Position numbers and translations under genes: made by a program. A DNA stretch of 64,000 nucleotides, from the NCBI RefSeq assembly GCF_900177795.1, contig NZ_FXWJ01000004.1, forward strand, positions 496,001 through 560,000. Direction: 5' to 3'. A model generated the notes under the pieces. The model did not search any database and had not been told where the DNA came from. It saw only the letters and a list, made by a program, of their open reading frames with translations. This DNA is from Plantibacter elymi (nom. nud.). GTDB lineage: Bacteria > Actinomycetota > Actinomycetes > Actinomycetales > Microbacteriaceae. Of the stretch, positions 8,574 to 23,683 are shown piece after piece (the first letter of the stretch is position 1; each line of letters begins with the position of its first letter).

Positions 8574-9832
8574 GAGAAGCCTTTCTGAAGGTGGGCTGAT
8601 GCGTCGCGGATACTGGTCGGCTGCGCCGGCGAGAAGGTCGGGCCGAGGTGTTCGGCGACGGCCAGCTCGCCGAGCGCGGGTCCGGTGGTCATCCCGATGC
8701 CCGTCGTCGCGGCGACCACCCGGACGCCCGGGGTCGGTTCGTCGATGAGCAACTCCTCCGGGGCGGTGGCGTAGACGCCCTGCCAGCGTTCGAGGACGTC
8801 GAGCCTCGTCCCGAACAGCGCGCTTCCGGCCCGCAGGAGTTCGTCGAAGGCGTGCTCGGACTGGAACGGGGACACCGCCTCGCCGCGGCTGTGGGTGTCG
8901 CCGAGGATGATCGAGCCGTCCGGCAGCTGGGTCGCCATGAGGTTGACGTCGAGCGACGCGAGCCCAGGGTGGTCCTGCTGCAGTCGCTCCCGGAGTGCCG
9001 GGATGGCGGGCGAGTCGGCGAATCCGGCGTAGCGCAGGAGCGACCACCCGGTCAGGAGCGGCGCGGGCATCGGCCTCGGAAGCTCGGCGCGCACCCGGAG
9101 CATGTCGAGCGCGCATCGACGGACAGCCGCCCGCTCGGCCAGCTCGGGGAGGAGCGTGTCGATGTCGTGGTTCACCGCGACCACGGTGAGGCCTGCGGCG
9201 ATGACGCCGCGACTGGTGTCGACGAAGCCGGAGCGCAGTCCGGTCACGGTCGTCCGGCGCCGGAACTCGACACCGCGACGTTCCAGGTACGCCGTCACGG
9301 CGCCCAGTGCCTGACGCGGGTTCACCTGGAGGTCGCGTGGCAGCCAGGCACCGCCCACCACGTCGTCGGCGCTGACCGGCACCTGCTGCAGGAACTCGGC
9401 CGCGTCGTACAGGCGGACGTCGGCCGCGGCACCCACCTGGGCACGGAACGCCGCGAAGTCCTCGAGGACGCGCAGCTCGTCGAGGTGCCGGGCGACCACG
9501 TGCGTGCCCGAGCGCCGGACCCACAGTCCCGCGTCCTGCTCGAGTCGCTGCCAGATCTCGGCCGAACGCGCGGCGAGGCGAGCGGCGAGCCCGGCCTGCG
9601 GCGTCGCGGCCAGATGGCCGAAGTTGCGGACCGACGCACCCTGGGCTTCGGCCGAGCGTTCGACGACCACGACCTCGGCACCGGCGTCCACGGCGGCGAG
9701 CGCCGCGGACAGCCCGACGATGCCGGCTCCGACGATCACGACGTCCGCGCGATCGGCCGAGGCACCGAGCGAGCCGACACCGAGGCCGACCCGCCCTGCC
9801 GACATCCCGCCGCTCATCCGTCGTCCGTTCAC
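8570..9832 (-). CDS. FAD-dependent oxidoreductase of the phosphonate cluster (DAO family)
   Basis: This is a glycine-oxidase/DAO-fold flavoenzyme of about 420 residues. VVIVGAGIVGLSAAL is the dinucleotide-binding motif, followed by VVVVERSAEAQGASVRNFGH. Near the C-terminus TTGIGMTTGPALGELAVAE closes the FAD site. This type recurs beside phnX-like genes (TIGR03364). Related PbfC/PbfD-type oxidases have been shown to convert N-alkylated aminoethylphosphonates to phosphonoacetaldehyde, which would feed the HAD enzyme next door. GTG 9832 is chosen because it overlaps the phnE stop (GTGA) and has GGAGGG 8 nt upstream. The in-frame ATG at 9817 is weaker. Confidence 0.86.
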   Translation of the reverse strand: MNGRRMSGGMSAGRVGLGVGSLGASADRADVVIVGAGIVGLSAALAAVDAGAEVVVVERSAEAQGASVRNFGHLAATPQAGLAARLAARSAEIWQRLEQDAGLWVRRSGTHVVARHLDELRVLEDFAAFRAQVGAAADVRLYDAAEFLQQVPVSADDVVGGAWLPRDLQVNPRQALGAVTAYLERRGVEFRRRTTVTGLRSGFVDTSRGVIAAGLTVVAVNHDIDTLLPELAERAAVRRCALDMLRVRAELPRPMPAPLLTGWSLLRYAGFADSPAIPALRERLQQDHPGLASLDVNLMATQLPDGSIILGDTHSRGEAVSPFQSEHAFDELLRAGSALFGTRLDVLERWQGVYATAPEELLIDEPTPGVRVVAATTGIGMTTGPALGELAVAEHLGPTFSPAQPTSIRDASAHLQKGFS

Positions 9833-11586
9833 GAGAACACCCTCCGCATCCACATGGCGATGCCCTCGACGACGAGGACGACCGCGAGGATCATCAGCAC
9901 GATGGCCGTGACCTGGTCGTAGTTCCCGCCCTGGTCCGCCTGGATCAGGTAGTAGCCGATGCCGCCTCCGCCGACGATGCCGAGCATGGTCGCGGCGCGG
10001 ATGTTCGTGTCGAGCGTGTAGAAGGTGTGCCCGACCAATGCACGGGCACCCTGCGGGAGCGTCGCGGCGGCGTAGACCTGCGGTCGCGTCGCGCCGACGG
10101 CGGTCAGCGCGCGTTCCGGTCCGGGCGCGACCTCCTCGAAGGAGTCGGCGATGAGCTTGCCGAGGAGGCCGATCCCGCAGATGCCGAGCGCGAGCGTCCC
10201 CGCCTGGGCGCCGAGCCCGGTGACCACGATGAGGAGGATCGCGAGGATGAGCTCCGGGATCCCGCGGATGCCGACGAGCGCGAACCGGGCGCCGGTGCGG
10301 ACACCGCGGTTCGGGGCGACGTTCCGTGCGGCGAGGGACCCGATGACGATCGAGCAGACGAGGGCGATAAGGGTCGCCGCGAAGGCGATCGCGACGGTCT
10401 CGAACATCGCCTCGACCATCTGCTCCGTCGTGCGCATGCCGAACGACGGCGGCCAGAGTCGGACGAGGACGTCGGGGGCCTTGGCCCAGAACGTCACGAG
10501 GTCGCCCCACTGGATGTCGGACACGACGACGCCCCAGACCACGACCGCCACGGCGAGCCAGGCACCGACGGTGTCGCGGACGCGGGCCGGCGTCCACGGA
10601 CGCTTCGCTGCAGCGGCGATCCGGGACTCGGTACTCGGAGTGGCCACAGTCAGGCTGCTCCCACCCGCCGCGCGACGTGCCTGCCGGCCCGCGGCCACCC
10701 GACGCACGACGCGGTCACCGAGTCCGCGTCCGGTCGGCTGCACCCCGAGCATCACGGTCCGCACGGTGCTCGACACGATCTCCATGACGACGCACAGCGC
10801 GAAGATCACGATCGCGAGTCCGATGCCGAGCGAGTAGTCGAGCGATTTGAACGCGAGCGACAGTTCACGGCCGAGGCCGAGGACGCCGACGTAACCGAGG
10901 AGGACCGAACCGCGCAGGTTGATGTCGCCACGGTGGAGGACCGTGGCCACCCAGGACGGGAGGACCTGCGGCAGGACGCCCGAGGTGAACTCCTGCAGCT
11001 TCGAGCCGCCGGCCGCCCGGATCGCGAGTCGCGGCCCTTCGTCGACCTGCTCGATCGCGTCCGCGAAGAGCTTCGAGATCATGCCGACGGAGTGCAGCCC
11101 GATCGCGATGATGCCGGGCAGCGAGCCGAGCGAGAACATGAGCACGAGGATCATCGCGATGACGACATCAGGCACGGCACGGCTGAGCACGCCGACGAAC
11201 CGACCGACCGCGCGCCACGCCGGTCCTGGGGTCGTGTTCGCGGCTGCGAGGTACGCGACCGGGACCGAGAGCACCGCAGCGAGGACGGTGCCGGAGATGA
11301 CGATCCCGAGGGTCAGGGCGGTGAGCGACAGCAGTTCCCCGGGCGGCGGGAACGTGATCGTGCCCACCCGGTTGAAGAAGTTGACCGCGTTGCCCCAGCT
11401 CGCCACCATGTTCGGGATCGAGATCCCGACCTCGAGAAGCGAGTAGACCGAGAACGCGAGCAGCGCGACGAGCGTGAGCACGGCGGCGATCGTCTGCGGG
11501 CGGAGCCGACCGACCGGGACGGGTCCGGAGAGTCCTGGCGGGCGGCCGGCGGGCGGTGCCGTCTTCGCGGGCGCGGTGACGACCAT
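9829..11586 (-). CDS. phnE: Fused phosphonate ABC permease (PhnE1-PhnE2 in one chain)
   Basis: This is a 585-residue inner-membrane permease made of two tandem binding-protein-dependent transport domains. The first runs over about residues 25-285 and contains RAVPDVVIAMILVLMF and DINLRGSVLLGYVGVLGLG. The second covers about 325-585 with RGIPELILAILLIVVTG and TNIRAATMLGIVGGGGIG. Each has the EAA-like cytoplasmic loop with RAAGGSK or TAVGATR. Most phosphonate operons carry one or two separate phnE genes, so the fusion would be a complete heterodimer-equivalent. The linker near residue 300 is Arg/Ala-rich. ATG 11586 shares its A with the phnC stop (TGATG). Confidence 0.93.
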   Translation of the reverse strand: MVVTAPAKTAPPAGRPPGLSGPVPVGRLRPQTIAAVLTLVALLAFSVYSLLEVGISIPNMVASWGNAVNFFNRVGTITFPPPGELLSLTALTLGIVISGTVLAAVLSVPVAYLAAANTTPGPAWRAVGRFVGVLSRAVPDVVIAMILVLMFSLGSLPGIIAIGLHSVGMISKLFADAIEQVDEGPRLAIRAAGGSKLQEFTSGVLPQVLPSWVATVLHRGDINLRGSVLLGYVGVLGLGRELSLAFKSLDYSLGIGLAIVIFALCVVMEIVSSTVRTVMLGVQPTGRGLGDRVVRRVAAGRQARRAAGGSSLTVATPSTESRIAAAAKRPWTPARVRDTVGAWLAVAVVVWGVVVSDIQWGDLVTFWAKAPDVLVRLWPPSFGMRTTEQMVEAMFETVAIAFAATLIALVCSIVIGSLAARNVAPNRGVRTGARFALVGIRGIPELILAILLIVVTGLGAQAGTLALGICGIGLLGKLIADSFEEVAPGPERALTAVGATRPQVYAAATLPQGARALVGHTFYTLDTNIRAATMLGIVGGGGIGYYLIQADQGGNYDQVTAIVLMILAVVLVVEGIAMWMRRVFS

Positions 11587-12581
11587 CAGCGGGTCCTGCC
11601 GGGTCGACGGAGCTCGTCGGGCTCGCGGCCGTCGACATCGGCGTCGAACTCCCACTCCGGGTCGTCGGGCAGTTCGTCCTCGCCCACGCGCTCCTCGACG
11701 CCGAGCAGGCCGCGGAGGTCGTCGTCGGGGTCGCCGAGCAGCTCGTCGGTCTCCAACTCCACCGCGATCGCCTGCAGCTCACGGGTGCTCGTCGCGACCC
11801 GGCCGTAGATCTCCATCACCTCGGTCTTCGACAGGCCGTCGGTCGTGGTGTCGAGGACCACCTCGCCGTGACGGAGACCGACGATGCGGTCGCCCCAGGA
11901 GAGCGCGAGGTCGACCTGGTGCAGGCTGCACACGACGGTGAGTCCGCGGTCGATCGCGATCTCGCGGATGAGGGCCATCACCTGCTCACTCGACTCCGGG
12001 TCGAGGGAGGCGACGGGCTCGTCGGCGAGGAGGATCTCGGGGTCCTGCATGAGCGCTCTGGCGATGGCGACGCGCTGCTGCTGTCCGCCGGAGAGGGTGT
12101 CGGCGCGCTGGTACGCACGCTCGAGGAGCCCGACGCGGTCGAGGTGACCGAGCGCCTTCAACTTCAGGGTGCGGCCGTAGCCGAGGATGCCGAGACGCGG
12201 CCCGCGGACGCCCGCCAGCGAACCGGTCAGGACGTTCTCGAGGACGGTGAGCGACGGGACCAGCTCGAACTGCTGGAAGACGAACCCGACGCGGGCGCGG
12301 AGCCGGCGTAGGGCGCGCTGTCCGAGGGCCGGCACCTCGTCGCCGAGGACCGAGACCGACCCGGCGGTGGGCCGCTCGAGACCGTCCAGGTGACGGAGGA
12401 GCGTCGATTTGCCGGAGCCCGACAGACCGAGCAGGACGACGATCTCACCGCGACGGATGTCGAGGTCGACGCGCTGCAGGGCGACCGTCCGGTCGAAGCG
12501 CTTCGTGACCCCGCGGAGACGCACGAGCGGTTCCGCTTGGTCGGATGCGGTGTGACGCGCCTGCTGCTCGGTGACGCTCAT
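11586..12581 (-). CDS. phnC: Phosphonate ABC transporter ATP-binding protein
   Basis: This is an ABC ATPase energising phosphonate uptake. Walker A is GLSGSGKST, the Q-loop is VFQQFELVPSLTVLENV, the signature is LSGGQQQR and Walker B is ILLADEPVASLDP. The switch histidine lies in VCSLHQVDLA. The start at 12581 (MSVTEQQ) has GAGAGG upstream, and upstream reading is not conserved-looking. At 331 residues it is longer than the usual 250-280 because of a strongly acidic C-terminal tail (about residues 285-331, EDELPDDPEWEFDADVDG). It lies between phnD and the fused phnE. Confidence 0.94.
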   Translation of the reverse strand: MSVTEQQARHTASDQAEPLVRLRGVTKRFDRTVALQRVDLDIRRGEIVVLLGLSGSGKSTLLRHLDGLERPTAGSVSVLGDEVPALGQRALRRLRARVGFVFQQFELVPSLTVLENVLTGSLAGVRGPRLGILGYGRTLKLKALGHLDRVGLLERAYQRADTLSGGQQQRVAIARALMQDPEILLADEPVASLDPESSEQVMALIREIAIDRGLTVVCSLHQVDLALSWGDRIVGLRHGEVVLDTTTDGLSKTEVMEIYGRVATSTRELQAIAVELETDELLGDPDDDLRGLLGVEERVGEDELPDDPEWEFDADVDGREPDELRRPGRTR

Positions 12582-12626
12582 GGCTGCTGCCTCTCGTGAG
12601 GTTGGTGGTGGTGCGGATGTCGCACC

Positions 12627-12680
12627 TCGACAGGCTCGGTGAGCGGGTACCGGAGCACCGGTCACTGAGCCTGTCGAAGT
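12627..12680. repeat. Inverted pair of dispersed repeat in the phnD-phnC gap
   Basis: CTCGACAGGCTCGGTGA and its inverted relative TCACTGAGCCTGTCGAAG face each other across a short loop that contains ACCGGAGCACCGGT. This is a variant of the CCTGAGCTTGTCGAAGGG element found in the gab/puo region. As RNA it would form a long hairpin just after phnD, and could protect the phnD message or attenuate read-through into phnC. Confidence 0.65.
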
Positions 12681-12698
12681 GCAGAGGTCCAGCTCAGA

Positions 12699-13619
12699 TC
12701 AGGCCTGGCACTGCTTGGCGTTGGTCTTCTTGCAGATGTCGCGGATGGTGTCGTAGTACGCGTCGTCGACCGGCGAGGTGCCGTAGAAGGTCGCGCGGAA
12801 GGCGTCGCTGTCGGCGCTCTTCACGCCAGAGTCGATGATCTGGTCGATCGTGACCTCGGACAGGGCCTTCTCGAGCTTCTCCTTCACGTCGGCGGGCAGC
12901 GAGTCGGACTCGACGATCGGCGCACCGGGGACCATCGTGCGGTCGATGACCTTCACGCCGTCGTTCTTCTCGACCTCGGAGTCCTCGGCGAAGCCCGCCT
13001 CGCACTCGACGCCCTCGGCGGTCTTCGTCACCGAGACGTCGTGCTTGCCGGCGAAGACCGGGGTGATGTCCTTCTCGGGGTCGATGCCGGCCTCGAGCAG
13101 GTTGTAGCTCGGGAAGAGGTAGCCGGAGGTGGAGGACGGGTCGACGAAGCAGACCTTCTTGCCCTTGAACTCCTCGATCTTCGTGATCGACGAGTCCTTC
13201 GGGACGATCGCCTCGGAGTAGTAGCCCGGCTCCTGCCCCTTGTCGGTGATGATCGACGAGATCGGCGTGATCTTGGCCCCGTTGTTGAGCGCGGTCACGT
13301 AGGTGAAGCCGGAGAAGGAGGCGACGTCGATCTTGCCGGCCACGGCCGCCTCGATGAGGGCCGCGTAGTCGGTCGACTCGTGGTATTCGACCTTCTTGCC
13401 GGTCTCCTGGGCGATGTAGTCCATGAGCGGCTGGTAGTTGGTCTGCGTGTCGACCGAGTCGGGGACGACGCCGAAGACGAGGGTCTGGTCGTCGACCGCG
13501 AAGGTCCCGGCCGCGGCGGAACCGGTGTCGCTGGCGGTGGCGCTCGAGCAGGCGGCCAGGCCGATCGAGAGGAGGGCTGCGGCGCCGAGCGCAGCGACGC
13601 GGGTGAGGGAGAGCTTCAT
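12699..13619 (-). CDS. phnD: Phosphonate ABC transporter substrate-binding lipoprotein
   Basis: This is a 306-residue extracellular lipoprotein that captures phosphonate (or phosphate/phosphite-like) anions. The signal peptide ends in the lipobox LAAC with Cys24. The mature part has the PhnD/PtxB fold: LVFGVVPD, the YQPLMDYIAQETGKKVE opening, DVASFSGF, and the anion-binding VDPSSTSGYLFP. It is the first gene of the operon phnD-C-E-FAD-HAD-ADH and is preceded by a PHO-box-like repeat. An inverted repeat follows the gene, which may explain higher expression of the binding protein. Confidence 0.94.
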   Translation of the reverse strand: MKLSLTRVAALGAAALLSIGLAACSSATASDTGSAAAGTFAVDDQTLVFGVVPDSVDTQTNYQPLMDYIAQETGKKVEYHESTDYAALIEAAVAGKIDVASFSGFTYVTALNNGAKITPISSIITDKGQEPGYYSEAIVPKDSSITKIEEFKGKKVCFVDPSSTSGYLFPSYNLLEAGIDPEKDITPVFAGKHDVSVTKTAEGVECEAGFAEDSEVEKNDGVKVIDRTMVPGAPIVESDSLPADVKEKLEKALSEVTIDQIIDSGVKSADSDAFRATFYGTSPVDDAYYDTIRDICKKTNAKQCQA

Positions 13620-13735
13620 GTGCTGGGACGTACCTTTCAGAAGGACCGATGCACCCGCCCGCTCCGCGCGTGGCTCCGGTGGATCGGAACCGCGAGTGAC
13701 CGACGCGGGCACTGCTGTGTGCCGTACGTGTGATC

Positions 13736-13790
13736 ACGCTACGAGCGGCGCCCGAACAGGGCCGGGCCTCCCGGTGAACAGGAGGTGAAG
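13736..13790 (-). promoter_or_regulatory. PHO-box-like direct repeat and phnD promoter
   Basis: Read towards phnD, two contiguous 11-nt units, CTTCACCTCCT (13790-13780) and GTTCACCGGGA (13779-13769), match the GTTCACC-type units of actinobacterial PhoP boxes. A degraded unit GTTCGGGCGCC (13757-13747) lies in the same 11-nt phase. TAGCGT (13741-13736) is a suitable -10. This arrangement suggests induction by phosphate starvation through PhoR-PhoP. Confidence 0.7.
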
Positions 13791-13880
13791 CCCCGCGGAA
13801 GGATCGATCAGGCAAGCCACGGCCGTCGTCCGCCGAGCCGCCTAGACTGCTGGAATCCGCCCATCCGAGCAGCAGAGCAG

Positions 13881-15026
13881 GTGAGTCGTTTGCCCCTCGA
13901 CCCGATCTTCGTCGAACGAGCGCGGACGCACCGCGCCTACCTCATCTCGACCGCACTCGAGCAGGCGAAGGCCTTCTTCCTGCGGCCGAAGACGACCACC
14001 GTAGCGCGCCCGAAGCCAGCTCCCGCGGCGGACCCGAAGGCGACCTCCCCGAAGGCCGCCGGGCCGAAGGCGAAGCCCTCGAGCCCGACGGCGAAGGCGA
14101 CCACCGCCGCACCCCGCCGCAAGAAGACGCGCGCGCAGCACCGCAAGGCCGCGCGGAACTGGGACAAGAAGGAGCTCGCGACCGTCGGCGTCCCGGGCCC
14201 GGAGCTGCGCATCGAGGAGCACACGATCCCGGTCGCCGGCTTCCCCGACGTCCGGATCCGGCTCTACCACCCGCCGACGGCCGAGGGCGACCAGGCGGTG
14301 CCCGCGGTCCTGTCCTTCTTCGGTGGGGCGTTCCGCATCGGCGGGATCGACTACCCGACGACCGACGCGGGGTTCCGTCGTCGGGCGGCCGACGCCGGCG
14401 TGGTCATCGCCGCCGTCGACTACGCGCTCGCTCCCGAGCACCGGTACCCGACGCAGCTGGAGCAGGCCCATGCGGCGCTCGAGTGGCTGTTCGCCGAGGC
14501 CGCGACGCTCGGGATCGACTCGGGGCGGATCGCCGTCGCCGGGGTGTCCGCCGGCGGCAGCATCGCGGCGGCGCTCACGCTCGTGAACCGCGAACGCGGC
14601 CGGCTGCCCATCCGACTCCAGCTGCTGGAGGTGCCGGTCACGGACCTCACCGGCGGCCACATCGACCTCCGTCCCGTGCGGGAGATGGGCATCCCGAGGA
14701 TCTTCGCGATCAAGGAGCTGCGCTCCGTCGCGAAGACCTACCTCCTCGATCGACGTCAGGCGAAGGAACCGCACGCGTCGCCCCTCCTCGCTCGGTCGCA
14801 CGCGGACCTCCCCCGCGCCGTGATCCTCACGGCCGAGTACGACCCCCTCCGCGGCGACGGCGCGGCCTACCTCGCCGCGCTCCGGGCCGACGGCGTCGAC
14901 GCGAGCGGGACGATGTACCTGGGCGCGACGCACGACACCCCGATCTTCGGCGGCGTACTCCCTGCGGCCCGCCGCTGGCACGACGACGTGGTGACCGCCC
15001 TGCGGTCACTCCACGACGCGGACTGA
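13881..15026 (+). CDS. Alpha/beta hydrolase (fold-3 esterase/lipase type) with basic N-terminal extension
   Basis: This is a hormone-sensitive-lipase-like hydrolase of about 381 residues. The nucleophile motif is GVSAGGSIA, the acid lies in TAEYDPLRGDG and the histidine in ATHDTPIF. The usual HGGG oxyanion motif reads SFFGGAFRIGG, so the conserved His is replaced. Residues 30-100 form an Ala/Pro/Lys-rich, histone-H1-like stretch that could bind acidic polymers or membranes. GTG 13881 is used, with TTG 13890 after GGTGAG as an alternative. TAGACT at 13843-13848 is a candidate -10. It precedes the AlaRS-like gene by 58 nt on the same strand and may be co-transcribed. Confidence 0.82.
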   Translation: MSRLPLDPIFVERARTHRAYLISTALEQAKAFFLRPKTTTVARPKPAPAADPKATSPKAAGPKAKPSSPTAKATTAAPRRKKTRAQHRKAARNWDKKELATVGVPGPELRIEEHTIPVAGFPDVRIRLYHPPTAEGDQAVPAVLSFFGGAFRIGGIDYPTTDAGFRRRAADAGVVIAAVDYALAPEHRYPTQLEQAHAALEWLFAEAATLGIDSGRIAVAGVSAGGSIAAALTLVNRERGRLPIRLQLLEVPVTDLTGGHIDLRPVREMGIPRIFAIKELRSVAKTYLLDRRQAKEPHASPLLARSHADLPRAVILTAEYDPLRGDGAAYLAALRADGVDASGTMYLGATHDTPIFGGVLPAARRWHDDVVTALRSLHDAD

Positions 15027-15084
15027 GTCGGGCCGCCGCGCCCACCGGCTTCCCCTCGGGCCGGAAAGCTGGAATCGTGTCGGC

Positions 15085-16515
15085 ATGGACGCCCACGAGA
15101 TCCGGAACGCCTACCTCGACTTCCTCGAGCGGAACGGCCACGCGCTGATCACGCGGGCGCCGCTCGTCCCACGCGGCGACACGAGCACCCTGTTCAACGG
15201 CAGCGGGATGCAGGCACTCCTGCCGTACCTCCTCGGTGAGGATCACCCCGACGGACGGCGGCTGACCGACAGCCAGCCGTGCGTCCGGGCCCAGGACATC
15301 GAGGACGTCGGCGACAACCGGCACACCACCTTCTTCGAGATGCTCGGCAACTGGTCGCTCGGCGACTACTTCAAGGAGACGCAGATCCGGCAGTTCTTCA
15401 CCTTCCTGCTCGACATCGTCGGGCTGGACCCGGAGCGGATCTCCGTCACCTGCTTCATCGGCGATCCCGCGAACGGCATCCCGCGCGACGACGAGGCCGC
15501 GTCGATCTGGGCATCCGTGTTCGCCGAACGCGGGGTCTCCAACGGGATCGCGGAGATCGGCTCCCAGGCCGACGGCGACGCCCGCGGGGTGCGGCCCGGA
15601 GAGCGGATCTTCTTCTACGACGGTGGCGAGAACTGGTGGTCCCGCGGCGGGTCACTCGAGGGCACACCGATCGGTGACCCGTGCGGCCCCGACAGTGAGG
15701 TGTTCTACGACTTCGGCCCCGAGTACCAGGATCCGTCCTTCGGCCTCGCGCATCCCGCGAGCGACGGCGGACGGTTCATGGAGATCGGCAACCAGGTGTT
15801 CATGCAGTACCGCCGACGCGAGGACGGCTCGTTCGAGGAACTCGCCAGACGCAACGTGGACTTCGGCGGCGGCCTCGAACGCATCGCCGCCGCGTCGATC
15901 GACTCCGACGACGTCTTCCGCATCTCGCTCCTGTGGCCCATCGTCGAGCGACTCCAGGAGCTCACCGGGAAACGCTACGAGGACGAGACCGCCGCGATGC
16001 GCATCATCGCCGACCACCTCCGGGGTGCGACCTTCCTCGCGGTGGACGGTGTGCGTCCGTCGAACAAGGAGCAGGGCTACGTCATGCGGCGGCTGCTCCG
16101 ACGGGCGATCCGGCTCGCGCTCTCGCTCGACCTCCACGAGAACTTCTTCGGCGAGATCGTGCCCGTCATCGCCGGGCTGTACGCCGACGACTACCCGGAG
16201 GTGGCCGCCGCCCGCGACGAGGTCGTCGCCGTCCTCGTCAAGGAGGAGCAGTCGTTCCGACGCACGCTGGGCGCTGGCCTCCAGATGGTCCAGGGGTACG
16301 CCGGGCGGGTCATGACGGGACACGACGTGTTCCGGCTGTCGGACACGAACGGCTTCCCGAAGGAGCTGACCATCGAGGAGGCCGGGCGCCTCGGCATCGA
16401 GGTCGCTTCCGACTGGGAGGCGGAGTTCGCGGCAGCCCTCGCCGAGCAGCGCGCGCGGTCCCGCGGGGCGACGCACCTCGGCGCCGCCGGCCTCCCGGGC
16501 GGCGACACCGCCTGA
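15085..16515 (+). CDS. Stand-alone alanyl-tRNA synthetase core protein lacking editing and C-Ala domains
   Basis: This is a 476-residue protein covering only the first half of AlaRS (normally about 880 residues). It retains the class II aminoacylation core. Motif 2 (about residues 68-98) contains RAQDIEDVGDNRHTTFFEM, the GGSLEGTPIGDPCGP segment follows, and motif 3 is DFGGGLERIAA (about 258-268). The tRNA-recognition helices end with RLSDTNGFPKELTIEEAG. There is no HxxxH editing domain and no oligomerisation/C-Ala domain. The sequence after the stop belongs to an opposing gene, so this is not a frameshifted full gene. It could charge tRNA-Ala or activate an amino acid for another use. Neighbours suggest lipid aminoacylation (inference). 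Confidence 0.88.
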   Translation: MDAHEIRNAYLDFLERNGHALITRAPLVPRGDTSTLFNGSGMQALLPYLLGEDHPDGRRLTDSQPCVRAQDIEDVGDNRHTTFFEMLGNWSLGDYFKETQIRQFFTFLLDIVGLDPERISVTCFIGDPANGIPRDDEAASIWASVFAERGVSNGIAEIGSQADGDARGVRPGERIFFYDGGENWWSRGGSLEGTPIGDPCGPDSEVFYDFGPEYQDPSFGLAHPASDGGRFMEIGNQVFMQYRRREDGSFEELARRNVDFGGGLERIAAASIDSDDVFRISLLWPIVERLQELTGKRYEDETAAMRIIADHLRGATFLAVDGVRPSNKEQGYVMRRLLRRAIRLALSLDLHENFFGEIVPVIAGLYADDYPEVAAARDEVVAVLVKEEQSFRRTLGAGLQMVQGYAGRVMTGHDVFRLSDTNGFPKELTIEEAGRLGIEVASDWEAEFAAALAEQRARSRGATHLGAAGLPGGDTA

Positions 16516-16529
16516 GGGTCGGCCTCCGC

Positions 16530-18581
16530 TCAGTCGCGCTTGAGCATGTCGATGCCGGCACCGGCGAACTGCCGGAGCGTCGCGTCCGGCAGGAATGCAC
16601 GGGTGAGCGCCGCGGCGATCCGGGTGAGGTCGCCCTCGTCGCGGTACAGGAGGTAGATCGGCTCCGATCGCGGGTTGAACTTCTGCTTGAACCGGTGGAG
16701 GGACGAGAAGCCGTACACGGGCTCAAGGATGCCGCTGAGCTGCCCCAGCAGGTGCGCGATGCGCCCTTCGTCGTCCTCGACCCGATGCGCGAGCGGTGCA
16801 CCCGAGAGCGAGAGGATCTGCGCGCCCTCCTCGGCGAAGACCTTGGCCGAGGAGGCGATGAGGAACTCCATGACCGAACCGAAGCCCTCCTCACGTCGCC
16901 GCATGAGGTCGAGCGTCCACCCGCGGTGCTCGCCATCGGGGCCGAAGACCGGGAGCCAGCTGAGGAAGCCGTCGACGTCGCCGTCGGGTGAGATCGCGAG
17001 TGCCAGACGGACCTCGGGGTCGTCGGCTTCCTGCAGGGTCCCGAGGGTGAACCGCATCTCCGGCAGACCCTTGTCGCCGACCCAGCCCTCGGAGATGGCG
17101 CGGATCTGCTGTCGGACGCCCCAGGTCTCGGCGGCGTAGGTGCTCATCCGGAAGACCATCCCCTCGCGCTCGGCCTTGTTGAGCGCCGTGCGGATGTTCG
17201 ACCAGGCCTTGCCGGTGAACGCGAGACCCGGGAGGTCGACGATCGTGTCGTCGGCGATGATGAGGTCGCGCCATCCCTCGGGCATCGCGTCCTTCGTCGC
17301 CTGGCTGGAACTGAAGAAGCACGGGATGAGGGAGTCGCGCTCGGCCGCCTGGACGAACTCCTCGACGCTCGCCTGGAGGTGCTCCGGCGGGCCGAGTGGG
17401 TCGGCGAGCACGATCGCGACGCCGGCGTGCTTCTGGTAGGGCACGAGGCCCACCGAGGTGCGGAAGTACTCCATGCCGTCCCACGTGGCCATCCAGGAGA
17501 GCGAGCCGCCGCCGTCGGTCCGGATGAGCGCGCGGGCGTCGTCGGCCGACGGCAGGTCCTGCTGCTGCTTGCGCCCGACGCCGAGCTGCCGGCGTCGGTG
17601 GGACGAGAACGCACTGCGGGTCGCGACGAGGTAGACGAGGAAGGCGAGCCAGAGCACCGACGTCGCCAGGAATACATCGGTGTCGCCCCAGTCGATCGGG
17701 AGCTCGGCGGGATCGAGCGGCGACAGTGCCAGGTACAGGACCGCGACCAGGACGTTGAGGATCGCCCACACGACGCTCAGGACCCACGCCCAGCGGCGAC
17801 CGAGCCGCAGGCCGTTGGCGACGAGGATGATCACGACCGTGTCGATCGCGACGTCGAGCCACGGGCCCTCCGCCGGAGCAGTCGGACCGAACGGGCCGTT
17901 GGTCGGCACGAGCAGGGCGACGATCTGGACGACACCGAGGGCCACGCTCGTCGTGAACGCGAGCAGTCGACGCTCGCGGACGCTGGCCCGCTGGATACGG
18001 AAGGAACGGTTCACCGCGAGGACGAAGAGCACCGCGAAGGCGTGCTCGAGGTCCGCGAGCGACCCGATGAAGAGGACCCCGATCGCGGCATACGACGCGA
18101 CGATGATCCAGCCCCGCTGCCGCCAGGGCGAGGCGAAGAGCGACACACACGCGGCGAAGCAGGCCATCGTCCCGCCGGACGGACCGACGTCGAGCATCCC
18201 GGCGAGGCTCGTCGCCCACGGCCAGGGCAGCTGGCTCGCGGCCCAGAGGAACCCGGCGGTGGCGAGGACAGCGACGAGCTGACCGGCGGCGAAGGTGATG
18301 AGCGCCACCTTCGATCCCCGCCACCACTCCAGCAGTCCGACCCAGGCGAACCCGATCACCGCGAACACGTAGGCCCACGGCTCCACGACGAGGAACGTGC
18401 CGGTGACGGGAGTCCACCAGCGCCCGGCCTCGAAGGCGGGCAAGCCGTAGGCGACCGCGTCCCACCACGGTTGCGCCGTCGTCGACTCCCAGAGGCCACG
18501 CCCGACGACGCCCACGACGAGGACGATCAGCACCAGGGCGATCGTGACCGGCACCCGGGCGACCACTGTTCGGATCCTCAT
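16530..18581 (-). CDS. Rhomboid-like membrane domain fused to DUF2156 (aminoacyl-phosphatidylglycerol synthase-like)
   Basis: This is a 683-residue membrane protein. The N-terminal 300 residues form about eight helices. They include the rhomboid-like GPSGGTMACFAA (about residue 134) and LEHAFA (about 178), which resemble a rhomboid Ser/His pair, though protease activity is uncertain. After a basic linker, residues 345-665 are DUF2156, the catalytic domain of MprF-type enzymes that move amino acids from aminoacyl-tRNA to lipids. It contains LVPYQKHAGVAIVLADPLG, KAWSNIRTALNKAEREG, MEFLIAS and EPVYGFSSLHRFKQKFNP. The ATG at 18581 has GGGGG upstream. It converges on the AlaRS-core gene with 14 nt between stops. 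Confidence 0.87.
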   Translation of the reverse strand: MRIRTVVARVPVTIALVLIVLVVGVVGRGLWESTTAQPWWDAVAYGLPAFEAGRWWTPVTGTFLVVEPWAYVFAVIGFAWVGLLEWWRGSKVALITFAAGQLVAVLATAGFLWAASQLPWPWATSLAGMLDVGPSGGTMACFAACVSLFASPWRQRGWIIVASYAAIGVLFIGSLADLEHAFAVLFVLAVNRSFRIQRASVRERRLLAFTTSVALGVVQIVALLVPTNGPFGPTAPAEGPWLDVAIDTVVIILVANGLRLGRRWAWVLSVVWAILNVLVAVLYLALSPLDPAELPIDWGDTDVFLATSVLWLAFLVYLVATRSAFSSHRRRQLGVGRKQQQDLPSADDARALIRTDGGGSLSWMATWDGMEYFRTSVGLVPYQKHAGVAIVLADPLGPPEHLQASVEEFVQAAERDSLIPCFFSSSQATKDAMPEGWRDLIIADDTIVDLPGLAFTGKAWSNIRTALNKAEREGMVFRMSTYAAETWGVRQQIRAISEGWVGDKGLPEMRFTLGTLQEADDPEVRLALAISPDGDVDGFLSWLPVFGPDGEHRGWTLDLMRRREEGFGSVMEFLIASSAKVFAEEGAQILSLSGAPLAHRVEDDEGRIAHLLGQLSGILEPVYGFSSLHRFKQKFNPRSEPIYLLYRDEGDLTRIAAALTRAFLPDATLRQFAGAGIDMLKRD

Positions 18582-18635
18582 GCGCGCTGCCCCCTTCGTG
18601 GTTCCACGGAGCACACGCGCGCCGTGCGGTCGAGG

Positions 18636-20231
18636 CTACAGAACGGCCGCGCGCGACCGCAACGCATCGCCGTCCGGCAGGCTGACCAGCGCGAGCCAGA
18701 GTTCGGCCCGAGCGGCGAAGGTGTCGAGGGGGCGCCCGAGCACCTGTTCCACCCGGGTGATGCGGTTGCGGAGCGTGTGTCGATGGATCCCGAGTCGCCG
18801 CGCGGCGGGCTCCCACTGCCCGTTCGCCTCGAGCCAGCCGCGGAGGCTCGGCACAAGGTCGGAGCCCTCCTCGCGGTCGACGCGGAGCACGGGCTCGAGC
18901 AGTTCCTCGGCCACGGCGGCGGCGCGGACGGGATCGAGCAACCCTGCCATCCCCGCTGCGGCGAGCGCCCCGAAACGCACGACGGCCTCGCCGGCGGAGA
19001 CGGCGTGCTCGTGTGCGGAGACCGCCTGCTCGATCCCCGTCGTCAGATCAGCGAGCGCGAGGGATCGGGAGAGGCCGAGCCGCCGTGCGGGTGCCGCCGC
19101 GATCACCGCCTCGACCGCCCGATCGACGCCCGTCTCCGTGTCCCCCTCGGCCGCCGCGAGGAGGAGGACGGGCCGTCCGTCCTGCTCGGCGACGAAGAGC
19201 GAGCCCGGGCTGAGCGTCTCGGCCCGTTCCAGCTCGGTGAGGAGCGCCTCGCGCCCTTCGGTCGGCCCGGAGCAGACGCCGACACGAACCGCTCCGGTCG
19301 GCAACGGCGTACCGAGCTGTTCGGCGACCTCGCGCGCCGCAGTGGTCTGTCCGGCGCGGAGCAGCTGCCAGACACCGGTGCGCAGCGAGCGCCCCACCCG
19401 TCCGAGCGCGCCGCCCTGCTCGAGGGTGAGCCCGGCGATGGCGACGACGGAGGTCACGACGCTCTGGGCCGCGGCGTCCAACGGGCCGTCGGTCCCGGCG
19501 ATGGCGAGGACACCCCGCAGGTCCCCGCGCCGACCGAGGGTCTGCAGCGACACCGTCCGGGTTCGGTTCGCGAGCGTCGCCCCCGACCGCTGTCCGCGGC
19601 TCAGGAGCATGGTGGCCTCACCGGCCACCCGCTCCAGGAGGCGCTCGGTCTCGGGACCGGCGGAGGGCCCGTCGCCCGCGATCGCCACCGGCGTCGCATG
19701 CGCGTCGAAGAGCACGACCCAGGCACCGAGCGACCGCGCGAGTTCGGTGACGACGGCGGCCGTCACGTCGGGTCGGAGTGCGGCGAACGCGATGGCGCGC
19801 TGGGCTCCCAGTGCCCAGGCGTCCCTCGCCCGCGCCGCCTCGGTGAGGAGGTCGGCCGCGTACCGGATGACGGCGATGAACGGCGTACGGTACGGGACCT
19901 CGATGAGCGGCATCCCGTGCGCCGCGCAGGCCTCGGCGAGTTCCGGCGGTGTCCCTGCCGTGATCACCTCGGTGCCGAACCCCAGTCCGGCGACACCGGC
20001 GTCGGCGAGGCGGGCGACGTACGCCTCGACCTGCGTCGTCGAGACCGCGGTCCCGAACTGCGTACCCGTGGTGAGCAGCACCTGGTCGGCGAGGAGGAAG
20101 GGCGTGGGGTCCGGCAGGTCGGACCCGGACACCCAGGCGACCTGCCGGTCGAGCGCGCCCTCGGTCCCGGCCACCACGAGCTTCAGGCCGAGCGCACGGT
20201 GGTCGAGGAGGTCCTGCAGCGTCGGTGCCAT
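18636..20231 (-). CDS. PucR-family transcriptional regulator
   Basis: This is a 531-residue regulator. The N-terminal PucR ligand-binding domain (residues 1-125) begins TLQDLLDHRALGLKLVVAG. A GAF-like middle follows. The C-terminal helix-turn-helix (HTH_30) reads LRGWLEANGQWEPAARRLGIHRHTLRNRI. PucR proteins typically regulate purine, GABA or polyamine catabolism. This one is divergent from gabT and probably controls the gabT-ALDH-oxidase-permease set. It may also read on into the DUF2156 gene, 54 nt downstream on the same strand. The start is well set by the leaderless promoter. Confidence 0.92.
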   Translation of the reverse strand: MAPTLQDLLDHRALGLKLVVAGTEGALDRQVAWVSGSDLPDPTPFLLADQVLLTTGTQFGTAVSTTQVEAYVARLADAGVAGLGFGTEVITAGTPPELAEACAAHGMPLIEVPYRTPFIAVIRYAADLLTEAARARDAWALGAQRAIAFAALRPDVTAAVVTELARSLGAWVVLFDAHATPVAIAGDGPSAGPETERLLERVAGEATMLLSRGQRSGATLANRTRTVSLQTLGRRGDLRGVLAIAGTDGPLDAAAQSVVTSVVAIAGLTLEQGGALGRVGRSLRTGVWQLLRAGQTTAAREVAEQLGTPLPTGAVRVGVCSGPTEGREALLTELERAETLSPGSLFVAEQDGRPVLLLAAAEGDTETGVDRAVEAVIAAAPARRLGLSRSLALADLTTGIEQAVSAHEHAVSAGEAVVRFGALAAAGMAGLLDPVRAAAVAEELLEPVLRVDREEGSDLVPSLRGWLEANGQWEPAARRLGIHRHTLRNRITRVEQVLGRPLDTFAARAELWLALVSLPDGDALRSRAAVL

Positions 20232-20237
20232 GGCGTG

Positions 20238-20266
20238 AGTCTACGCATGGATGCCGAATCGTCCAA
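20238..20266 (-). promoter_or_regulatory. Leaderless promoter of the pucR-type gene
   Basis: TTGGAC (20266-20261), a 17-nt spacer and TAGACT (20243-20238) lie so that transcription would begin at the A of ATG 20231. The message would have no 5' leader. The gap to gabT (20232-20387) must also hold the gabT promoter. TAGCCT at about 20319-20324 is the best -10 candidate. Confidence 0.7.
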
Positions 20267-20387
20267 CCGATGCCAGTTGCATGTACAGACTGTCGACTGC
20301 CTCGACGCGGACCGCTGCCTAGCCTGGGTGCACTGCTCGCGGACGACCTCGGCGCCCCCGCCGGACGCGGCAGCCGAAGGAGTACCG

Positions 20388-21752
20388 ATGACGAGCAGCA
20401 CCGCAGCCCCCGCGCCCTCCATCCTCGGCGGACCCTCGCTCCCCCAGGAACGTCGCCTCGTCACCGCCATCCCCGGACCGATCTCCGAGGAACTCATGGC
20501 CCGGAAGCACGCCGCGGTCGCGTCCGGCGTCGGCACCACGATGCCGGTGTTCGCGGCCGGCGCGGGCGGTGGCGTCCTCGTCGACGTCGACGGCAACTCC
20601 CTGATCGACCTCGGGTCCGGCATCGCCGTGACCGGCGTGGGCAACAGCAACCCGCGCGTCGTCGAGGCCGTCACCCGACAGCTGCAGGAGTTCACCCACA
20701 CCTGCTTCACCATCACCCCCTACGACTCCTACGTCGAGGTCGCCGAGGCGCTCAACCGCCTGACCCCCGGCGACCACGCGAAGCGCACGGCACTGTTCAA
20801 CTCGGGCGCCGAAGCGGTCGAGAACGCGGTGAAGATCGCCCGCAGCCACACGAAGAAGCAAGCGGTCGTCGCCTTCGACCACGCGTACCACGGCCGCACG
20901 AACCTGACCATGGCCCTCACCGCCAAGTCCATGCCCTACAAGAGCGGCTTCGGCCCCTTCGCCTCCGAGGTGTACCGCGCACCGCTGTCCTACCCCTTCC
21001 GCGACGGTGGACTGACCGGCCCCGAGGCGGCGCAGCGCGCGATCACCCAGATCGAGAAGCAGATCGGCGCAGACAACCTCGCGGCGATCATCATCGAACC
21101 CATCCAGGGCGAGGGCGGCTTCATCGTCCCGGCGGACGGCTTCCTGCCGGCCCTGCTCGACTGGGCCCGCGCGAACGACGTCGTCTTCATCGCCGACGAG
21201 GTGCAGACCGGCTTCGCCCGCACGGGTGCGATGTTCGCATCCGAGCACTTCGACATCGTGCCCGACCTCATCATCACCGCCAAGGGCATCGCCGGCGGTC
21301 TGCCGCTCTCCGCCGTCACCGGACGCGCGGAGATCATGGACGCCCCGCACGCCGGCGGCCTCGGCGGCACCTACGGCGGCAACCCGCTCGCCTGTGTCGC
21401 CGCCCTGGCGGCCATCGAAGCGTACGAGGAGGAGGACCTCGCAGCCTCGGCCCGGGCGATCGAAACCCGCATCGCCGACCGCTTCACCGCGGCGCAGGCC
21501 TCTGACCCCCGCATCGGCGACATCCGCGGGCGCGGCGCCATGATGGCGGTCGAGTTCGTCGACCCAGCCACCGGCGAGCCCGACGCCGCCCTCACAGCAC
21601 GCGTCGCCAAGGCCGCCCACCAGGCCGGGGTCATCGTCCTCACCTGCGGCACCTACGGCAACGTGGTCCGCTTCCTCCCGCCACTGACCATCCCCCTCGG
21701 GCTGCTCGACGAAGGACTCGACGTCCTCCTCGAGGCGCTCGCCGCGAACTGA
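20388..21752 (+). CDS. gabT: 4-aminobutyrate (GABA) aminotransferase
   Basis: This is a 454-residue class III PLP aminotransferase that converts GABA plus 2-oxoglutarate to succinic semialdehyde and glutamate. It has NSGAEAVENAVKIAR, FDHAYHGRTN, EPIQGEGGF and DEVQTGFARTG (PLP-binding Asp region). The Schiff-base lysine is in ITAKGIAGGLP at Lys299. GGTYGGNPLAC lies after it. The ATG at 20388 follows a strong GAAGGAG. The frame extends far upstream but only as a shadow of the pucR gene. A semialdehyde dehydrogenase follows, as expected for GABA breakdown. Confidence 0.95.
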   Translation: MTSSTAAPAPSILGGPSLPQERRLVTAIPGPISEELMARKHAAVASGVGTTMPVFAAGAGGGVLVDVDGNSLIDLGSGIAVTGVGNSNPRVVEAVTRQLQEFTHTCFTITPYDSYVEVAEALNRLTPGDHAKRTALFNSGAEAVENAVKIARSHTKKQAVVAFDHAYHGRTNLTMALTAKSMPYKSGFGPFASEVYRAPLSYPFRDGGLTGPEAAQRAITQIEKQIGADNLAAIIIEPIQGEGGFIVPADGFLPALLDWARANDVVFIADEVQTGFARTGAMFASEHFDIVPDLIITAKGIAGGLPLSAVTGRAEIMDAPHAGGLGGTYGGNPLACVAALAAIEAYEEEDLAASARAIETRIADRFTAAQASDPRIGDIRGRGAMMAVEFVDPATGEPDAALTARVAKAAHQAGVIVLTCGTYGNVVRFLPPLTIPLGLLDEGLDVLLEALAAN

Positions 21753-21769
21753 CGCCCCGCCCGCCGCTT

Positions 21770-21877
21770 CCTGAGCTTGTCGAAGGGCCGCCCTTCGACA
21801 AGCTCAGGGACCGAGGCGGCCCCCGCCCTCCGACAAGCTCAGGGACCGATGTGATCGTCCCCGAGCTTGTCGAGGGG
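21770..21877. repeat. Four alternating copies of the TGAGCTTGTCGAAGGG element
   Basis: Copies lie at 21770-21787 (forward), 21791-21808 (inverted), 21826-21847 (inverted, CCCTCCGAC variant) and 21859-21877 (forward variant). Adjacent inverted copies can form stable stem-loops between gabT and the aldehyde dehydrogenase gene. The same element recurs at 23641, 25051-25272, 12627 and inside the MMPL gene. Confidence 0.9.
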
Positions 21878-21933
21878 CATGCACGCTGAAACACTGTGAC
21901 CGACGGCACCGACACCACCAAGGAGCTCCACCC

Positions 21934-23400
21934 ATGACCGATGCACGTGAAACCGATCTGCTCGCCAAGGTCCCGAACGGCCTGTTCATCGGAGGCGTCT
22001 GGCGCGACGCGACGGAGGGCGCGACGCTCGACGTGAGCGACCCGTCCACCGGCGACGTCATCAAGACGATCGCGGACGCCTCGGTCGCCGACGGCACCGC
22101 GGCCCTCGACGCAGCCGTCGCCGCTCAGGACGAGTGGGCGGCGACCGCTCCCCGCACCCGCTCCAACATCCTCCGGAAGGCCTTCGACCTCCTCCAGGAG
22201 CGTCGCGAGGAGTTCGCCCTCCTCATGACGCTGGAGATGGGCAAGCCGCTCGCCGAGGCGAACGGCGAGGTCACCTACGGTGGTGAGTTCCTCCGCTGGT
22301 TCTCCGAGGAGGCCGTCCGCATCTCCGGACGCTACGGGTCGAACCCCGAGGGCACCGGCATGATGACCGTCTCGCAGCACCCCGTCGGGCCGTGCTTCCT
22401 CATCACCCCGTGGAACTTCCCCCTCGCGATGGCGACCCGCAAGATCGCCCCGGCGCTCGCCGCCGGCTGCACGGTCGTCGTCAAGCCCGCCGAGCTCACG
22501 CCGCTCACGACCCTGTACTTCGTGAAGCTGCTCGAGGACGCCGGGCTCCCCGCCGGCGTCGTGAACGTCATCACCACCTCCAGCTCCTCCGCAGTGTCCG
22601 GCCCGATCATCGCCGACCCGCGGCTCCGCAAACTGAGCTTCACGGGCTCGACGGCCGTCGGTCAGAAGCTCATCGAGCAGTCCGCGAAAAACGTCCTCCG
22701 CACCTCGATGGAGCTCGGCGGCAACGCCCCGTTCGTCGTGTTCGAGGACGCCGACCTCGACAAGGCCGTCGAGGGCGCGATGGCCGCCAAGTTCCGCAAC
22801 ATCGGACAGGCGTGCACCGCAGCGAACCGCTTCATCGTCCACCGCGACGTCGCGGACGAGTTCGCGAAGCGCGTCACTGACAAGGTCAACGCGTTCCGCA
22901 TCGGTCGTGGCACCGAGGACGGCGTGACGATCGGCCCGCTCATCGACGACCGCGCGGTCGCGAAGGCGAAGACCCTCGTGGGCGACGCCGTCGAGCGCGG
23001 CGCCGAGGTCCTCATCGGCGGCGAGGCCGTCGACGGACCGGGCACCTTCTTCCAGCCGACGGTTGTCACCGGCGTCGTGCCGGGGTCCGACATCCTCCGC
23101 GAGGAGATCTTCGGCCCGGTCCTCGCGATCGTGCCGTTCGACGACGAGGACGAGGCCGTGCGGCTCGCGAACGACACCGAGTACGGGCTCGTCTCCTACG
23201 TGTTCACCACCGACCTCGCCCGCGGACAGCGCATGATCGGCCGCCTGCAGACCGGCATGATGGGCCTCAACGTCGGCGTCATCTCGAACGCCGCAGCTCC
23301 GTTCGGTGGTGTCAAGCAGTCGGGCATCGGACGCGAAGGCGGACTCGAGGGCATCCACGAGTACCTGTACACGAAGTACACCATGACGCCCATCGGCTGA
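21934..23400 (+). CDS. gabD: NAD(P)-dependent succinate-semialdehyde / aminobutyraldehyde dehydrogenase
   Basis: This is a 488-residue aldehyde dehydrogenase. The catalytic Cys294 lies in NIGQACTAANRF and the general-base Glu260 in MELGGNAPFVVF. The cofactor motif FTGSTAVGQKL and the family's substrate-end PFGGVKQSGIGREGG are present. By motif pattern and position it is a GabD that would oxidise succinic semialdehyde from GabT to succinate. It could also oxidise 4-aminobutanal made by the amine oxidase downstream, for which no separate dehydrogenase is present here. The ATG is preceded by AAGGAG at 21919-21924. Confidence 0.93.
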   Translation: MTDARETDLLAKVPNGLFIGGVWRDATEGATLDVSDPSTGDVIKTIADASVADGTAALDAAVAAQDEWAATAPRTRSNILRKAFDLLQERREEFALLMTLEMGKPLAEANGEVTYGGEFLRWFSEEAVRISGRYGSNPEGTGMMTVSQHPVGPCFLITPWNFPLAMATRKIAPALAAGCTVVVKPAELTPLTTLYFVKLLEDAGLPAGVVNVITTSSSSAVSGPIIADPRLRKLSFTGSTAVGQKLIEQSAKNVLRTSMELGGNAPFVVFEDADLDKAVEGAMAAKFRNIGQACTAANRFIVHRDVADEFAKRVTDKVNAFRIGRGTEDGVTIGPLIDDRAVAKAKTLVGDAVERGAEVLIGGEAVDGPGTFFQPTVVTGVVPGSDILREEIFGPVLAIVPFDDEDEAVRLANDTEYGLVSYVFTTDLARGQRMIGRLQTGMMGLNVGVISNAAAPFGGVKQSGIGREGGLEGIHEYLYTKYTMTPIG

Positions 23401-23508
23401 CCCGCCTCGGTCGGCACGACGGAAACCGTCGCCGATCACCGATCCGACCGGCGACCTCGCCATCCGCGGTTCCATCCGACCACCGGATCCGCCATACTCG
23501 ACTATCGG

Positions 23509-23662
23509 CGCCGGTCCCGAGCACCACACGGGCCCGACAGCACCACCCCGGCCCGCGAGCACCACCCGACAGCACCACCACCCGGTCCCCGAGCACCACC
23601 CGGTACCGACAGCACCACCCAGGCCCCCGAGCATCACCCCGGTCCCTGAGCTTGTCGAAGGG
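23509..23662. repeat. Degenerate GC-rich tandem array ending in a full dispersed repeat
   Basis: This region holds repeated CGGTCCCCGAGCACCACC and CCGACAGCACCACC variants, roughly 18-25 nt apart, ending at 23641-23662 with a full copy of the TGAGCTTGTCGAAGGG element. The 23401-23683 gap has no gene. The array is related to the 21-nt repeats inside the MMPL gene (GGTCCCTGAGCACCCCACC). Confidence 0.75.
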
Positions 23663-23683
23663 CCACGAACAGGAAGACACCTC

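Follow-up and report, generated by a model that had tools for sequence, protein, structure and literature searches.

Dedicated aminoacyl-tRNA synthetases that feed lipid transferases have been described for lysine, in LysX, and for aspartate, in ErdS (PMC10580965, PMC9437257). Others are dedicated to products of a different kind, such as VlmL for serine (PMC2922099) and AcmD for alanine, the latter in the making of a nucleoside antibiotic (PMC12945691). Here we deal with a pair of genes from the actinobacterium Plantibacter elymi, one for a shortened alanyl-tRNA synthetase (AlaRS), hereafter the mini-AlaRS, and one for a membrane protein of the DUF2156 family. Both lie in a stretch of 64,000 nucleotides (contig NZ_FXWJ01000004.1, positions 496,001 to 560,000), which is called the window. 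The pair appears to resemble LysX and ErdS, with an AlaRS as the synthetase, unfused and free of editing. The literature searched, which left most subscription journals outside its scope, yielded no case of an AlaRS linked with a lipid transferase.

LysX is a fusion of a LysRS with MprF, found in M. tuberculosis and corynebacteria (PMC10580965, PMC9437257). LysX too is actinobacterial, and its synthetase, a paralogue, supplies a DUF2156 lipid transferase, as is proposed for the window pair; it differs in having a LysRS instead of an AlaRS and in being fused. A LysX-like gene, so labelled from its size and domain, is also present in the window genome (C7:494360-495364). ErdS likewise brings together a synthetase and a DUF2156 transferase, but it is a fungal AspRS-DUF2156 fusion with ergosterol as the acceptor (PMC9437257). 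No such fusion was found in the window, where synthetase and transferase are separate genes on opposite strands. VlmL and VlmA, again a dedicated synthetase and an MprF-like transferase, differ in that the synthetase is a SerRS and the product a small molecule (PMC2922099).

With respect to the trimmed synthetase itself, the closest described case is that of Tupanvirus, whose mini-AlaRS charges both tRNA-Ala and microhelix-Ala and can replace the yeast AlaRS, and does so specifically even though it has neither the N nor the D that read G3:U70 (PMC10036535). The window mini-AlaRS has the same architecture of catalytic and tRNA-recognition domains only. The Tupanvirus enzyme differs from it in being viral, of eukaryotic origin, devoid of the G3:U70 residues and without a lipid link; it descends with the eukaryotic AlaRS (PMC10036535), whereas the nearest non-actinobacterial kin of the window protein are in the Saccharibacteria. 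In ascamycin synthesis, AcmD charges the tRNA and AcmF, a truncated AlaRS-like protein that has lost its activation residues, acts as the transferase (PMC12945691). With AcmE counted in, a single Ala-tRNA-dependent pathway here combines an additional AlaRS with a truncated AlaRS-like protein and with a hydrolase, and in this it resembles the window. The window mini-AlaRS, however, keeps its activation residues (N236 and D259, presumably equivalent to N219 and D232 of AcmF, with a different spacing), its transferase is a DUF2156 protein and a lipid is the presumed acceptor. Finally, AlaDAGS of Corynebacterium is a DUF2156 enzyme that makes alanyl-diacylglycerol (Ala-DAG), and pesT was deleted together with alaDAGS in the C. 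glutamicum test strain; the passages on that system mention no dedicated AlaRS (PMC10580965). Compared by description, AlaDAGS is like the window transferase an actinobacterial DUF2156 enzyme.

An AlaRS cut down to the same set of domains is thus functional in Tupanvirus, and dedicated lysine, aspartate and serine synthetases serve MprF-like transferases. We hold it moderately probable that a two-enzyme module for the aminoacylation of lipids is made up of the mini-AlaRS and the DUF2156 protein, the first being a dedicated Ala-tRNA source for the second, an alanyl-lipid synthase. The mini-AlaRS would activate alanine with ATP and charge tRNA-Ala through the acceptor stem, and the DUF2156 membrane enzyme would move the alanyl group onto a lipid, for which diacylglycerol and phosphatidylglycerol are the likeliest candidates. 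The product would be Ala-DAG or alanyl-phosphatidylglycerol (Ala-PG).

The two-gene cassette and its proteins

An earlier note on this DNA had proposed that three adjacent genes, for a hydrolase, an AlaRS that ends after the tRNA-recognition part and a DUF2156 protein, work together. All three are open and each matches its family, and the AlaRS does stop where it was said to. The features are as follows.

13785 or 13881-15026, plus strand: Abhydrolase_3 (HSL-type) hydrolase (PF07859, E 1.8e-47), judged to be outside the module
15085-16515, plus strand: mini-AlaRS, 476 amino acids (PF01411, E 1.4e-106), aligning with positions 1-430 of 847 of TIGR00344 only
16530-18614, minus strand: DUF2156/LPG_synthase_C membrane protein, 694 amino acids (PF09924, E 2.5e-63)
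18581, minus strand: alternative ATG start of the same open reading frame, giving 683 amino acids
16644-17531, minus strand: PF09924 aminoacyl-tRNA:lipid transferase domain, residues 362-657 (Pfam)
17603-18563, minus strand: N-terminal membrane domain, about residues 18-338 (alignment of 35 homologues, hydropathy, Pfam scan of 13)
15027-18635, no strand: two-gene cassette, the stretch between the hydrolase end and the PucR gene end, absent in two congeners (blastn)
18636-20231, minus strand: PucR-type regulator (PF07905, PF13556), kept at the empty site and judged to be outside the module

The mini-AlaRS and DUF2156 genes are convergent, tail to tail on opposite strands with a gap of 14 bp, and the hydrolase gene lies on the AlaRS strand, 58 bp upstream of it. 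With this arrangement of strands the three genes do not make up one operon. The source genome (4.12 Mb, 100% complete, 0.42% contamination) also has a full-length AlaRS elsewhere (C7:209085-211670, open frame 888).

The extent of the unit was given by two congeners, G001 and G004, that have neither the mini-AlaRS nor a DUF2156 orthologue, yet keep the hydrolase at 87-88% identity, with the PucR gene within about 100 bp after it. When window positions 8001-24000 were compared by blastn with these loci (L157 and L158), the matches ended at 15016-15018 and resumed at 18668-18679. The missing block is made up of the AlaRS and DUF2156 genes, so the hydrolase is a neighbour and not a partner, and the unit is one of two genes rather than three. 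The cassette is present in five congeners, which may have gained it, and absent in two, which may instead have lost it.

The mini-AlaRS consists of the catalytic and tRNA-recognition domains, without the editing (SAD) and C-Ala domains. Its AlphaFold2 model has a mean predicted local distance difference test score (pLDDT) of 91.7, and the best PDB matches of the model are AlaRS structures, including the catalytic fragments 1riq, 3hxu and 9jc7. Residues R68, M86, W185, N236, D259 and G261, whose single roles are taken as known for AlaRS or mapped by alignment, are identical in all 30 minis, in 11 of 11 Saccharibacteria-type rows and in 5 of 5 canonical rows. N327 and D420, which by our own mapping we take to be the G3:U70 readers, are kept in the window protein and in 29 of the 30 minis. 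The W that the canonical AlaRS has at position 235 is replaced by G, and its T at position 260 by another residue, which is F in the window; both departures are also seen in the Saccharibacteria-type AlaRS. In comparisons with four congeners, the ratio of nonsynonymous to synonymous substitution rates (dN/dS) is 0.035-0.070 for the mini-AlaRS and 0.025-0.047 for the DUF2156 gene; against five more distant minis it is 0.148-0.322, with synonymous sites starting to saturate. The mini-AlaRS is under purifying selection, with its predicted fold and key residues intact.

The DUF2156 protein has eight hydrophobic stretches in a hydropathy scan, followed by the PF09924 domain, as is expected of a member of this type. 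Its solved structural kin include a lysyl-phosphatidylglycerol (Lys-PG) synthase (4v36, E 1.6e-23) and an Ala-PG synthase (4v34, E 5.2e-14). The earlier note had called it rhomboid-like as well as DUF2156; the latter stands, and the former is weakly supported: PF20401 (Rhomboid_2) was matched in 6 of 13 aligned homologues (best E 1.1e-5) and PF01694 in one, with no match to either in the window protein at E up to 1. The N-terminal membrane domain is perhaps distantly rhomboid-like. An active rhomboid protease domain was rejected, given that Ser and His are not conserved. The GPSGG motif is not kept across the family (35 homologues). The predicted structure of the whole protein, made from a 4-row alignment, has a mean pLDDT of 50.6 and was not used further. 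One congener has a second DUF2156 protein (G002:C13:26355-28388), 58% identical to that of the window.

Co-occurrence and linkage

The distribution of the pair was assessed in a class sample of 394 genomes and a family sample of 299, with thresholds of 1e-95 for AlaRS and 1e-115 for DUF2156 that had been set from earlier searches, and with up to 5 AlaRS and 3 DUF2156 best candidates scored per genome. The paired searches were taken as covering the same genome samples, since their handles agree, most match-free genomes being unlisted; the window's own genome is in both. The family is taken as Microbacteriaceae, since G612, whose coordinates match those of the Subtercola boreus locus L036, belongs to it as well. 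In the class sample, the mini-AlaRS is present in 8 genomes and the DUF2156 orthologue in 20, with both in 8, that is, in every mini carrier. In the family sample, 22 genomes have the mini-AlaRS and 38 the orthologue, with both in 15, five of them from the window genus. Hypergeometric values are 9e-12 by genome and 1e-8 by genus for the class, and 2e-10 and 9e-5 for the family; these are uncorrected for relatedness and count genomes or genera as though each were independent of the others, although this is not the case. Williamsia and two Pseudonocardia are named carriers of both genes.

Both genes occur in 12 genus-level groups (10 coded genera plus Williamsia and Pseudonocardia, some of which may coincide), and in 7 of these they are direct neighbours, no more than about 0.7 kb from each other. 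Five genomes of the window genus, two of g226, Williamsia and two Pseudonocardia have the pair in convergent orientation; it is divergent in G284 and G369, and in tandem in G503. In G379 some 6 kb lie between the two genes, a stretch that holds an esterase and two permeases, one for amino acids and one for lactate. Linkage of a synthetase to a DUF2156 transferase, as in LysX and ErdS, is therefore found here too, with exceptions, and the pairing that the earlier note had proposed is borne out by co-occurrence and repeated adjacency across actinobacterial genera, less so by some carriers considered below. No mini-DUF2156 fusions were noticed in the loci read, where the open reading frame calls were rough and some over-long.

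Esterases of one sequence cluster accompany the pair in Williamsia, in both Pseudonocardia and in G284 and G379. G446 belongs to the same genus as G379; there such an esterase comes 46 bp after the mini-AlaRS, and the DUF2156 gene, on another contig, has an esterase of its own. Two scanned members belong to PF00756, and the five that were checked have four predicted transmembrane or hydrophobic stretches and a GxSxG motif. Since family members occur in 27 of the 32 genomes searched, their presence says little and it is their place that tells. Two are found in the window genome: the first, on C7, lies some 1.5 kb from the LysX-like gene, and the second is on C8. The hydrolase that goes with the pair in other genera is of the PF00756 type and different from the Abhydrolase_3 protein of the window, and these esterase neighbours are no more than a hint of a possible orthology between the transferase and AlaDAGS.

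The surroundings of the pair may be described briefly. In the window, the cassette adjoins genes for the PucR regulator, a class-III aminotransferase, an aldehyde dehydrogenase and an amine oxidase (18636-25042), perhaps a catabolic cluster of the polyamine or gamma-aminobutyrate (GABA) type. On the other side lies a phosphonate-type ATP-binding cassette (ABC) transporter on the minus strand (9829-13712), with a PhnD-like binding protein, an ATPase and a permease in which two stretches were matched. A special tRNA in the window was considered and rejected: the sole ARAGORN hit, a tRNA-Ala (CGC) of 92 nt at 60496-60587 on the plus strand, was taken as a probable false positive, and Rfam at gathering scores found no tRNA in the window. 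Of four tRNAs found in 31 other loci (Gly, Gly, Ser and Leu), none is for Ala. The two mini carriers without a PF09924 match (L041:2076-7678 and L046:135-6359) have a common neighbourhood, in which genes for a ZnuA-type metal-uptake protein, the small chain of a ribonucleotide reductase and an FMN reductase come before the mini-AlaRS, with family scans made on L041 only.

Origin of the mini-AlaRS

The mini-AlaRS is 66% identical to a Candidatus Saccharibacteria AlaRS and 39% identical to the full AlaRS of its own genome. Members of the Saccharibacteria live on Actinobacteria. Of the 11 Saccharibacteria-type rows, three of which (L038, L045 and L051) carry no such name in their titles, 10 are 626-660 amino acids long with an editing domain, and L052 is split at a masked stretch. 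Their genomes have one AlaRS each, and G705 and G706 also have separate editing-type pieces (one at 6e-29). The 30 minis are 459-494 amino acids long, and a search of 40 actinobacterial loci, of which some are short or come from the same genome, found no remnant of an editing domain at E 0.01. Judged by these relationships, the mini-AlaRS derives from a Saccharibacteria-type AlaRS through the loss of the editing domain.

In the AlaRS tree the minis fall into two clades, A (18 rows, including the window) beside L037 and L038, and B (12 rows) beside L051. A single mini clade was rejected (p of the approximately unbiased (AU) test 0.019; quick tree, 63 rows) and appeared in 0% of 200 bootstrap trees (47 rows). 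As some rows are from metagenome-assembled genomes, some branches are long (L128 and L175) and the AU value is moderate, two separate origins in Actinobacteria are probable rather than proven. Saccharibacteria AlaRS genes would apparently have been taken up twice, the editing domain being lost each time. A PF09924 protein over the cut-off was seen in 4 of the 11 Saccharibacteria-type genomes (G706, G708, G709 and G710; L043, L051, L052 and L057), among them that of the closest editing-bearing kin of clade B.

Both clades have DUF2156-linked members, and the DUF2156 proteins of the window (clade A) and G379 (clade B) are 72% identical. On the DUF2156 tree, 12 changes are needed to account for the presence of the mini-AlaRS, and starred branches make 10 of these unavoidable. 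That minis of both origins stand beside closely related transferases, with this many changes, was counted in favour of the two-enzyme module, and the mini-AlaRS appears from the tree to be a repeated add-on to a transferase that mostly works without one.

Alternative readings of the pair

Several findings weigh against the two-enzyme module. Two Rhodococcus, Brachybacterium and Brevibacterium carry the mini-AlaRS without a DUF2156 orthologue, as do 7 of the 22 family carriers (genera g12 and g27). Other PF09924 proteins are present in all nine orthologue-free carriers from Rhodococcus, g12 and g27; Brachybacterium and Brevibacterium gave no PF09924 match at E 0.001, so a mini-AlaRS can exist without such a transferase. 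Conversely, 12 of the 20 orthologue-bearing genomes in the class sample and 23 of the 38 in the family sample have no mini-AlaRS at threshold, which indicates that the transferase normally works alone. The genes are both present but apart in g53, g222, g8, g124 and G446, and the window pair is not an operon. The mini-AlaRS is no more clustered on the DUF2156 tree than shuffled labels are (as low in 61 of 500). Lastly, the mini-AlaRS of G284 (L154:7186-8589, row L129) has S and E at both predicted G3:U70 positions; its gene adjoins the DUF2156 gene and an esterase of that genome.

The main rival is a backup or resistance AlaRS comparable to AcmD, a horizontally acquired copy that would sustain translation when the main AlaRS is inhibited, the DUF2156 linkage being secondary. 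AcmD, the extra AlaRS of the ascamycin cluster, does indeed withstand ascamycin better than the canonical AlaRS (PMC12945691), and a backup accounts for the varied neighbourhoods and fits the DUF2156-free carriers better than the module does. It fits the linkage worse, leaving unexplained the 8 of 8 overlap in the class sample, the adjacency in three orientations and the two-gene block, and the loss of editing, probably twice, would be odd for an enzyme that serves translation; we regard it as rather unlikely. A canonical full AlaRS is kept in all 21 mini carriers searched and in the window's own genome (22 of 22). A zinc-independent backup under Zur control was rejected, the best match to one 15-base consensus having at least 6 mismatches upstream of each of the 30 minis (one strand, up to 300 bases).

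Dedicated class II synthetases with MprF-like transferases also serve small-molecule pathways (PMC2922099), and the pair could, like VlmL and VlmA in valanimycin synthesis, aminoacylate a small molecule, or else another membrane component, instead of a glycerolipid. The several hydrophobic stretches of the transferase, its nearest solved kin, which include lipid synthases, and the lack of a recognised biosynthetic cluster among those neighbours that were scanned make this improbable.

The three-gene module of the earlier note, with the Abhydrolase_3 protein stripping the amino acid from the lipid as AhyD does, has in its favour the position of the hydrolase gene close upstream on the AlaRS strand, and is very improbable. 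Besides the empty site, a search of 11 carriers from other genera gave the hydrolase either no match at E 1e-20 or remote ones that do not exceed 38% identity, and in G003 about 2 kb (L117:9799-11822) separate it from the mini-AlaRS; on these three grounds it was ruled out as a partner of the pair. Judged by eye, the long frame in that stretch of G003 resembles a lysozyme of the GH25 type that has cell-wall-binding repeats. The hydrolase has a GVSAG motif and no N-terminal hydrophobic stretch, and neither AhyD-type membership nor co-inheritance with an aminoacyl-lipid synthase was found. Just as hard to credit is chance, that is, two sporadic genes acquired separately and neighbours by accident, as their separation in several carriers might suggest, in view of their co-occurrence and repeated adjacency in different genera.

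The two-enzyme module can be taken one step further, to a reading that is doubtful on present evidence: a Saccharibacteria AlaRS may have been recruited twice, and each time cut to an editing-free core feeding a lipid transferase, as relaxed accuracy was of use there. Without editing, the mini-AlaRS would also produce Ser- and Gly-tRNA-Ala, and mixed Ala, Ser and Gly lipids might result. If this is true, a loss of accuracy that is harmful in translation may be useful in the supply of lipids, and editing lost twice, independently and in one setting, would amount to a natural experiment that shows when a synthetase can do without accuracy.

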